From positions 1 through 34,991 of the forward strand of contig JAGDXJ010000060.1 in the NCBI GenBank assembly GCA_023256355.1: 34,991 nucleotides of DNA, read 5' to 3'. Origin of the DNA: Nitrososphaerales archaeon (lineage in GTDB: Archaea > Thermoproteota > Nitrososphaeria > Conexivisphaerales > UBA164). This document shows positions 570-4,905 of this stretch, one piece after another (position 1 is the first letter of the stretch; every line of letters begins with the position of its first letter). A program made the translations under genes and the position numbers. The notes beneath the pieces are model-generated. The model was not told the origin of the DNA. It saw only the letters and a list, made by a program, of their open reading frames with translations, and ran no database searches.

Positions 570-758
570 GTTAGGTAAACACAAAGCCACAAAAAAGGCG
601 ATCCTGTGTCAGTCTGGTGGTTTGCTCGTTTCATTGCAATAATTATAACTTTAACAATGAAACGCGCGCCCAAAAGATCCTGTGTCACTGTTTCATGTGG
701 GGGTGACACAGGATAAGCCTATCGCTCTATCTTTATTTCCATTTTGTGTTTACCTAAC
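570..758. repeat. MITE-like palindromic unit A (189 bp) bounded by 13 bp inverted repeats GTTAGGTAAACAC...GTGTTTACCTAAC
   Basis: Terminal inverted repeats at 570-582 and 746-758; internal inverted pairs CGTTTCATTG 627-636 / CAATGAAACG 655-664 and ATCCTGTGTCAC 677-688 / GTGACACAGGAT 703-714. Confidence 0.85.
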
Positions 759-876
759 TTTTTTTAAAAAATGTACACTACAGATGGTAAGATATGTGTC
801 AGGTATATATATAATTCAAAAAATAGAAAAATAGGGTAAAAATTCTAAAATAAGATATATATTCTAAAATTAGAAA

Positions 877-1061
877 GTTAGGTAAACACGAAGTGGAAAT
901 AAAGATAGAAGGGGGGTTTATCTTGTGTCAGTGGGTCATGAAACGCTGACACAGGATCTTTTTTGGGTCGCACCATGCCTCGTTTCATTGCAAACGTTAT
1001 AATTTTGACAATGAAGTGTTAAAAAAACCCACTGACACAGGTTGGCCGGTGTTTACCTAAC
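877..1061. repeat. MITE-like palindromic unit B (185 bp), inverted homologous copy of unit A
   Basis: Same 13 bp TIRs at 877-889 and 1049-1061; reverse complement of unit A aligns along its length (GGAAATAAAGATAGA, ACACAGGATC, TTTCATTG, TTATAATT blocks). Confidence 0.85.
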
Positions 1062-3164: not shown

Positions 3165-4484
3165 TCAAACGATAGATGAGATTATTAAAGCAACTAGCAT
3201 GAAGGCTATAGAAAAGTACATGTGAAGTGCCGTAAAGAACCCAGTCTGCTGATCCAGTATCTTTCTTTTCCAGCTTTTTGAGTTCATCGCTATCTTTGTA
3301 AGCCTGTAAGCCCACGGCATGGTAAGGAAAGACCCAAGTATCGGCCAGTAAGTTCTGTCCAGAAAAACCGCAAACGCAAAAAGCGCGTAGCTCAGCCATA
3401 TAAGCGCAAGATAGTATGCTTTTGATCCTTTTTCTCCAAGCAAAAGGGCAACAGTTTTGATACCGGCCCTTTTGTCATCTTCCATATCTCTCCAGTTGTT
3501 TGCGTGGAGGACAGCAACTATGACCATGCCTATTGCTACCGATATAAGGACGCTTGCCATGCTTATCTTAGCTCCCATAAGGGCTTCTGTGCCCAGGACG
3601 ATGCCCGGTCCAAATGCTAACATGACCCCAAGGTCTCCAAGCGCTAGCCACTTAAGCCCAACCTTGGGTATCCCGTACATAAGCCCTGCAACAAGCCCCA
3701 ATATTATAAAGGGGACTATTGAAGCCCTCGCTAAAGCAAGATAAACGCCTATCATGAGCGATGCTGTAAGCAGAAATAAAGAGTAAGCTAGCTGGAACCT
3801 CGGCTTCATAAGTCCGTCAATAAGAACCCTCGAACCCGCTGAACCCATTCCGTTAGGCAGGTCTACTTTGCTTATGTAATCAAAATAATCGCTGAGCGCG
3901 TTAAAGGCACCGTGAACCATTATTATGCCTAAGATGGCAAGCATGAAGAATAAAACCACTATCTGTCTTGCTAGAAGAACGCCAAGGATCATCGCAGAAA
4001 CGCTCATCTGAAGGCTCCATGGCCTTAAAGCCCTTAACAGCTTAACCGGCTCTTTTTCACTCAACTCTTCAAGGTTAAAATCAGCATAGTACTTTTTTGG
4101 CTCATCGCTCATGTCCGTAACCCTTATCCTCTCGGGAACAAGCCTAACAAGAACTACGTTTCCCATGGTTATAAAAAGAAGGTCTTCAGGAACTTTGGAA
4201 AGCAAAACTCCCCTTTCTCTTTCGAGCTTTGCCGGGTCGCCAAGGACTTCAACTTTTCCTTCTCCCTGGACAAAAAGGTCTGGCCTGTTCAGATCTATTG
4301 AAAAAGAAACCCTTGGGTTTTTCTGAACCGCTTTTAGCGTCCTACCTTCATTTTCAAGAAGAAAGATAAACCCATCATGCATAGCATAATAAACTTTTAT
4401 GCCCCATGGACCCTGATCGTCACAGACGGATATGTTCATTGTTTTTGCCTTTCTTAGAAGATTTATGACACGCCTGTCAATCAT
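3165..4484 (-). CDS. fusion protein: N-terminal pyridoxamine-5'-phosphate-oxidase-like FMN split barrel + C-terminal UbiA prenyltransferase
   Basis: N-term RKAKTMNISVCDDQGPWGIKVYYAMHDGFIFLLENEGRTLKAVQKNPRVSFSID...VQGEGKVEVLGD is PNPOx-like; C-term has NALSDYFDY and NNWRDMEDDKRAGIKTVA Asp-rich motifs. Confidence 0.8.
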   Translation of the reverse strand: MIDRRVINLLRKAKTMNISVCDDQGPWGIKVYYAMHDGFIFLLENEGRTLKAVQKNPRVSFSIDLNRPDLFVQGEGKVEVLGDPAKLERERGVLLSKVPEDLLFITMGNVVLVRLVPERIRVTDMSDEPKKYYADFNLEELSEKEPVKLLRALRPWSLQMSVSAMILGVLLARQIVVLFFMLAILGIIMVHGAFNALSDYFDYISKVDLPNGMGSAGSRVLIDGLMKPRFQLAYSLFLLTASLMIGVYLALARASIVPFIILGLVAGLMYGIPKVGLKWLALGDLGVMLAFGPGIVLGTEALMGAKISMASVLISVAIGMVIVAVLHANNWRDMEDDKRAGIKTVALLLGEKGSKAYYLALIWLSYALFAFAVFLDRTYWPILGSFLTMPWAYRLTKIAMNSKSWKRKILDQQTGFFTALHMYFSIAFMLVALIISSIV

Positions 4485-4609: not shown

Positions 4610-4905
4610 ATGAAATGCATAAACTGCTCTTATTATAGGCAACACCCAATCTACGAGTTTATGGGATACTGTGAGAAAAAAGGTTCTGCTGTCTTCCCTG
4701 AAGATAGCTGCAGAGACGCCATCAGTACTGTTAAAGAGGAAACTGAAAAGCTCTTTGAAAACTACGGATGGGCATACTGTATCGAGTGCGGCAGCGTGCT
4801 TTTTGATAGGAGCGAGCTTGATAAACACATAAGCCTAGGACACAGCTTGACTCAAAAATTTTTGGAAGATGAGGTAGCTACTTACGAATCACCGGGTGGA
4901 GATTG

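Follow-up and report, generated by a model that had tools for sequence, protein, structure and literature searches.

The stretch of DNA analysed here, 34,991 nucleotides from a Nitrososphaerales archaeon and referred to in the following as the window, is contig C40 of an assembly of 1.19 Mb (66 contigs, 82% complete), and its position 1 is a contig end. From left to right it begins with two small open reading frames, an extended palindromic region, a gene for a free-standing winged-helix protein and, on the minus strand, a tRNA-Met(CAT) gene (2157–2230, 3′ end at 2157), the likely integration site of a mobile element. From about position 2142 onward the window shows 89% identity to the congeneric genome G002. 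Since the homology breaks off about 15 bp outside the 3′ terminus of tRNA-Met, positions 1 to about 2142 probably represent one end of an element that has inserted into the 3′ end of this tRNA gene. In G002 the same tRNA-Met is followed by different genes and the palindrome is absent from that locus; in another congener, G004, the contig begins one base past the same tRNA-Met end. tRNA genes are common integration sites of thaumarchaeal elements (PMC6563490). The other end of the element was not found, and a search for a duplicated tRNA-Met 3′ end returned only 78–79% matches inside the tRNA, which are probably paralogous tRNAs.

Several further features are seen around this junction and beyond it. 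Directly past tRNA-Met, the minus strand of positions 2127–2148 reads GGTTCAAATCCTACCCCTCGGC, which looks like the T-arm plus 3′ end of a different tRNA and is a possible attachment-site remnant. At the site of the element, G002 (L089, contig C1) has a 2.3-kb segment with two genes, enclosed by an inverted pair of about 110 bp (2430–2545 and 4785–4900); one copy starts at the tRNA-Met 3′ end and holds TTTAAGTAAACAC, the other holds TTTAGGTAAACAC, copies of which are present in G009 and G002. Further along the window, positions 3165–4484 (minus strand) encode a UbiA prenyltransferase with a weak pyridoxamine-phosphate-oxidase-like N-terminal domain, and a 462-aa ORF is found at the matching place in G002. 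The GC content drops within the contig from about 45% to about 30% between about 20000 and 31000, which suggests a second island or a composition boundary.

To the left of the palindrome, both on the plus strand, lie a predicted membrane protein of 94 aa without family match (64–348) and an acidic ORF of 34 aa (402–506). To its right, the plus-strand ORF at 1173–1625 starts with ATG and encodes 150 aa, which constitute one complete domain resembling the C-termini of D5-type primases, and its product is a candidate origin-binding protein. The match to the Pfam family RFX (PF02257) has an E-value of 5.5e-4 and, with 20.9 bits, lies below the curated cut-off of 27. A profile built from five relatives matches, at weak E-values, only RFX5, Sulfolobus Cdc6-1, a DNA primase, the P4 primase domain and RFX1 in the PDB. 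The AlphaFold model, which is of moderate confidence (pLDDT 71), superposes best on the RFX DNA-binding domain bound to an X-box (E 2.6e-4, TM 0.83 on the target), followed by RFX5 and, weakly, by Orc1/Cdc6 bound to origin DNA. The predicted fold is thus that of an RFX/D5/P4-alpha/Orc1-type winged helix, and an earlier note made from the sequence alone had assigned the ORF correctly as D5-like. In three viral contigs (L052, L053 and L054) the domain is found at the C-terminus of a 290-aa protein encoded next to a terminase-like gene, and a Desulfobacterium genome gives the same match; beside these viral-contig relatives, in which the winged helix is fused to another domain, a comparable palindrome was not found.

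Between these genes, positions 569–1062 form a single imperfect palindrome with all blocks in mirror order about one axis near 817–822; an unpaired extra box at 1064–1076 extends the palindromic region to 569–1076, i.e. to about 0.5 kb. It is composed of unit A (570–758, about 190 bp), its reverse-complement homologue unit B (877–1061) and, between them, an AT-rich core (759–876, 81% AT), which is a candidate unwinding element. The earlier note had recognized both homologous units with their correct borders as well as the core, but had overlooked that the whole constitutes one palindrome. Adjoining the core, the inner arm of unit A (726–761, minus strand) is complementary to its mirror arm (874–909, plus strand) at 34 of 36 positions, much as had been described for the inner flanks, and the two arms carry the two TGGAAATAAAGATAGA sites, mirror-placed about 817–822. 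The internal inverted pairs noticed before are present as well, namely 677–688/703–714 and 627–636/655–664, the latter together with 981–990/about 1007–1015.

The palindrome is a real and highly non-random structure. DNA folding, which the earlier note had proposed as a check, gives −119 kcal/mol for 569–1062 as compared to −49.7 ± 4.5 kcal/mol in shuffled sequences (z = −15.5), and the best palindrome arm score of 31 exceeds the maximum of 14.5 obtained when the surrounding 12 kb were shuffled 30 times. When unit B is reverse-complemented and aligned with unit A, conserved blocks alternate with diverged spacers. Since the arms are alike in the blocks and have diverged in the spacers, an assembly artefact in the form of a perfect foldback is ruled out, and this pattern is as expected for binding sites and unlike that of a recent duplication.

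Both units are bounded by box1 (GTTAGGTAAACAC), whose four identical 13-bp copies, the terminal inverted repeats of the earlier note, are located at 570–582 (+, outer left), 746–758 (−, inner left), 877–889 (+, inner right) and 1049–1061 (−, outer right). A fifth, unpaired copy with one mismatch is found on the side of the winged-helix gene at 1064–1076 (−), where the earlier note had placed a further core of the repeat at 1066–1076. Allowing up to two mismatches, GTTAGGTAAACAC has five matches in the window, as opposed to 0.64 on average and never more than 3 in 100 shuffles, and TTAGGTAAACA occurs five times in the palindromic region and nowhere else in the 1.19-Mb assembly. Box2 (CTGTGTCAG, YTGTGTCAS) is found at 604–612 (+), 680–688 (+), 703–711 (−), 923–931 (+), 946–954 (−) and 1032–1040 (−), six of its seven matches in the window falling inside the palindromic region. 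Box3 (GTTTCATTG, RYTTCATTG) has four sites (628–636 (+), 655–663 (−), 982–990 (+) and 1009–1017 (−)), and box4 (GTTTCATG) has two, at 690–697 (+) and as a mirror copy at 937–944 (−). The long inverted arms would presumably pair in a transcript too, as required for a long hairpin RNA; such an RNA, or a structural role of some other kind outside replication, would leave the repeated short boxes and the AT-rich core unexplained, and with no Rfam match in the window besides tRNA we regard it as very unlikely.

The identical 13-bp terminal inverted repeats borne by each unit are also what two head-to-head MITEs or transposon ends would display, and the earlier note had listed a MITE pair and a composite transposon end among its explanations. 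A mobile cassette with a similar end may be present in G009 (L060, contig C147, 1697–2208), where a 512-bp segment with a single ORF of 121 aa is bounded by a 28-bp inverted repeat with the inner ends TTTAGGTAAACA(C/A). Two partial copies of this repeat end lie on the same 25-kb contig (L087, 6649 and 12829), on which all four exact copies of TTAGGTAAACA in the G009 genome are located as well, and the segment is a possible small mobile cassette sharing the box of the window. Against mobility of the units themselves stands their copy number: the search of the genome and its relatives that had been suggested for recognizing a MITE finds the unit at one genomic locus, and 60 related genomes contain no DNA similar to the palindrome beyond AT-rich chance matches. 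Searches of plasmid and phage collections with tblastn and blastn returned no relatives, and the viral contigs contain no paired boxes 140–170 bp apart. A target-site duplication is not visible by eye, the flanks of unit A (...TTGGCA / TTTTTTT...) and unit B (...TAGAAA / TATTGTT...) being different. Moreover, all internal boxes are mirrored about one axis, and the UBA164 genome described below has the same layout in a different sequence. No transposase was found in the palindrome's part of the window, nor any other feature supporting a composite transposon end. Both explanations are therefore not supported and regarded as highly improbable.

Inverted sites flanking AT-rich DNA and a winged-helix initiator are likewise features of Orc1/Cdc6 origins with their origin recognition boxes (ORB). 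The inner arms carry AGTGGAAATA / ATGGAAATA by the AT-rich core, and the Orc1 boxes of the genome are CTCCAGTGGAAATATAGGGG, as might be expected if the palindrome were a chromosomal origin bound by the host Orc1/Cdc6. However, GTGGAAATA alone is expected 0.38 times by chance, and a full ORB is found nowhere in the window within three mismatches. This explanation fails because orc1/cdc6 is located on another contig together with its own canonical boxes and no such box is present in the window; with the palindrome missing at the same tRNA-Met locus of G002, it is hardly credible. On contig C30 of G000 (L014, 1127–1213), two identical 28-bp repeats ending in the ORB-like CTCCAGTGGAAATATAGGGG are found upstream of orc1/cdc6, and these repeats are likely the chromosomal origin.

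The arrangement of the window recurs in the thaumarchaeon UBA164 (G007, contig C8), a genome of the same family, where a prim-pol/SF3 helicase gene, a palindrome and a gene for a free-standing winged-helix protein follow each other in this order. The replication protein comprises 769 aa with Prim-Pol, D5_N and DUF5906 domains. The inverted repeat lies 56 bp past its gene, its outer arms match at 62 of 62 positions and its fold deviates from shuffled sequences by z = −16.8. As in the window, two units surround a core; each is bounded by inverted AGGTGTRCA, a motif oriented opposite to TTAGGTAAACA of the window. The free-standing protein (186 aa) contains two winged helices, scores above the Pfam cut-offs for Pox_D5, RFX and Cdc6_C, and is followed directly by a ParB-like gene. 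While the layout is shared, the sequence identity of the two palindromes is almost nil, with a weak excess of common k-mers (p about 0.02 at k = 9) to which we give no weight. Comparison of the window with UBA164 hence reveals a large non-coding stem-loop beside a replication gene with conservation of structure and not of sequence. Prim-pol, SF3 helicase and winged helix are combined in one replicon in UBA164, whereas the assembly of the window provides the winged helix only, the contig ending at the palindrome's side.

An association of inverted repeats with primase genes is found across the sampled Nitrososphaeria. In four relatives, the top-scoring non-coding repeat within the 10–12 kb surrounding D5/prim-pol genes reaches 24.5–62 compared to shuffle maxima of 14–15.5, and these repeats adjoin the primase gene or primase operon: immediately 5′ of the D5 primase in G009, upstream of the primase operon in G002 and 3′ of a second prim-pol gene in UBA164. 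For a wider sample, the 3′ flanks of 25 D5/prim-pol genes with enough flanking sequence were compared to those of 111 other long ORFs; the window, whose palindrome sits 5′ of the winged-helix gene, is excluded from the 25. Inverted repeats with a score of at least 13 are present in 13 of the 25 primase flanks and in 3 of the 111 controls (p = 4.5e-9), those with a score of at least 15 in 10 and none, respectively; several thresholds are given since the cut was picked after a first look, some of the 25 loci may be related elements and the controls include a few doubtful ORFs. Against background windows, the 500 bp 3′ of the 25 genes yield a Fisher combined p of 4.5e-9, the 5′ side only p = 0.13. 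The positions of the repeats range from slightly inside the stop codon up to 159 bp past it, with loops of 51–271 bp that are usually more AT-rich than their own locus, and the arms often consist of tandem units of about 9 bp (e.g. three copies of AAGGTTACA, three of GTCAGGGCT, two of GTCACGAGC). Repeat arms around an AT-rich loop are likewise known from the origins of pRN1, P4 and SaPI. At the newly sampled loci L105–L121 every above-threshold inverted repeat adjoined a primase gene. The D5/prim-pol 3′ flanks of L105–L119, with their inverted tandem repeats of about 9 bp around AT-rich loops, are themselves candidate origins for this group of elements.

These observations bear on two further explanations, which jointly hold a quarter of the probability. 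Autoregulation is frequent among small DNA-binding proteins of mobile elements, and the fifth box lies about 100 bp before the start codon of the winged-helix gene; the boxes could thus form a large operator through which the protein represses its own promoter, with replication starting elsewhere. A symmetric array of 490 bp, its AT-rich core separated by about 300 bp from the single gene downstream, nevertheless goes far beyond the needs of an operator, the ORFs at 64–348 and 402–506 run toward the palindrome, so that it is not a divergent promoter, and comparable repeats in many relatives are located at the 3′ end of the primase gene and not at a promoter. We consider an operator unlikely. 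Archaeal partition sites are palindromic, and the ParB-like gene just beyond the winged-helix gene of UBA164 would suit a partition centromere of the element, i.e. a parS-like array. In the portion of the element covered by the window, however, neither ParA nor ParB was recognised, the repeats associate with primase genes instead of par genes, and a centromere does not need an AT-rich core, which renders this function distinctly unlikely.

Replication origins of known plasmids and satellites provide closer counterparts. The minimal replicon of pRN1 needs a stem-loop of about 100 bp located 54 bp 3′ of the prim-pol-helicase gene orf904; among the pRN plasmids the sequence of the stem-loop varies while its structure is kept, and prim-pol, SF3 and winged-helix proteins have been proposed to assemble at the stem-loops (PMC4234260, PMC3869888). 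The palindrome corresponds to this element as a stem-loop in non-coding DNA beside a replication gene, retained in structure without retention of sequence, and, for the like locus of UBA164, in the class of replication protein (prim-pol, SF3 helicase and winged helix). It differs by its length of about 500 bp, about five times that of the pRN1 element, by several box families and the 81% AT core, and by adjoining a free-standing winged-helix gene, with the helicase gene absent from the assembly. In phage P4 (record X51522), crr is separated by 45 bp from the 3′ end of the alpha gene and consists of two 120-bp units around AT-rich DNA, in which GGTGAAC iterons point either way. P4 and the window thus have in common a pair of units with iterons, some of them inverted, AT-rich DNA and a winged helix of the same broad class, but the P4 units are direct repeats, in contrast to the mirror units of about 190 bp seen here, P4 employs a single fused protein, and there is otherwise no sequence homology. 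The boxes of the window (GGTAAACA), UBA164 (GGTGTACA) and the P4 iteron (GGTGAACA) are alike, though so short that this could be chance. The half-site of the RFX X-box, GGTAAC, resembles them as well, and the likeness is a lead and not a test.

In SaPI origins, short iterons directly downstream of rep are bound by the C-terminal domain of Rep, as summarized in PMC7581432 (citing Ubeda 2007). The parallel to the window, short iterons as putative targets of a C-terminal domain of the helicase, is drawn from this description and not at the sequence level, and SaPIs are bacterial. The arrangement typical of P4 and SaPI origins, in which short sites recur in either orientation around AT-rich DNA, is found in the window. 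Integrated elements of thaumarchaea carry winged-helix or primpol-S3H replication genes, and for NitUzo-E2 a winged-helix protein has been suggested as possible replication initiator; integration at tRNA genes, probable for the window, is shared by these elements, and an origin structure is not described in the accessible text (PMC6563490). No mapped replication origin of a thaumarchaeal mobile element was found in the literature searched.

On the basis of the UBA164 layout, the primase-repeat association, the counterparts in pRN1, SaPI and P4, the winged-helix match and the likely insertion at tRNA-Met, we favor the interpretation of the palindrome as the replication origin of an integrated thaumarchaeal plasmid or virus, a variant of the prim-pol/D5 type, and give it a somewhat better than even chance. 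The origin with symmetric initiator sites envisaged by the earlier note thereby gains support. In such an origin, the adjacent free-standing winged-helix protein would bind the boxes in their inverted orientation, namely GTTAGGTAAACAC together with the sets of CTGTGTCAG / GTTTCATTG, in each arm; alternatively, the same domain at the C-terminus of the element's prim-pol/SF3-helicase, encoded outside this assembly, might do so. Symmetric binding would place two initiator/helicase assemblies at the flanks of the core (759–876), which would melt, possibly with the arms extruded as a cruciform, and bidirectional synthesis would be primed at the melted core. Binding, melting and replication, like the helicase on the missing part of the element, are inferred.

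The chief weakness of the origin interpretation is that the helicase gene was not found in this assembly: apart from the winged-helix ORF itself, neither a prim-pol nor a D5 helicase was detected, and the place directly 5′ of the palindrome, where UBA164 has its gene, is not taken by one. With a contig end at position 1 and a genome completeness of about 82%, this absence is weak evidence. It also counts against an origin that only about half of the tested primase genes carry such a repeat, that the palindrome exceeds the pRN1 stem-loop about fivefold and has several box families, and that the winged helix combines a Pfam score under the cut-off with a model of moderate confidence. A more specific proposal, which we make tentatively and consider rather doubtful, is a split initiator, in which a free-standing RFX/Orc1-like winged helix without helicase or ATPase domain would define the origin by binding the mirror array of half a kilobase, and the helicase, a separate one or that of the host, would be recruited.

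If the split initiator holds true, it would represent a split initiator-origin system of archaeal mobile elements and one instance of a widespread rule in Nitrososphaeria, according to which iteron palindromes are located beside prim-pol genes. The analysis provides short candidate origins together with candidate binding sites for roughly half of the prim-pol elements sampled in this class, and these could be a start for vectors in organisms without genetic tools. The origin layout of pRN1, P4 and SaPI would thereby be extended to a new archaeal group, and an RFX-like domain would be linked to a concrete set of candidate target sites.
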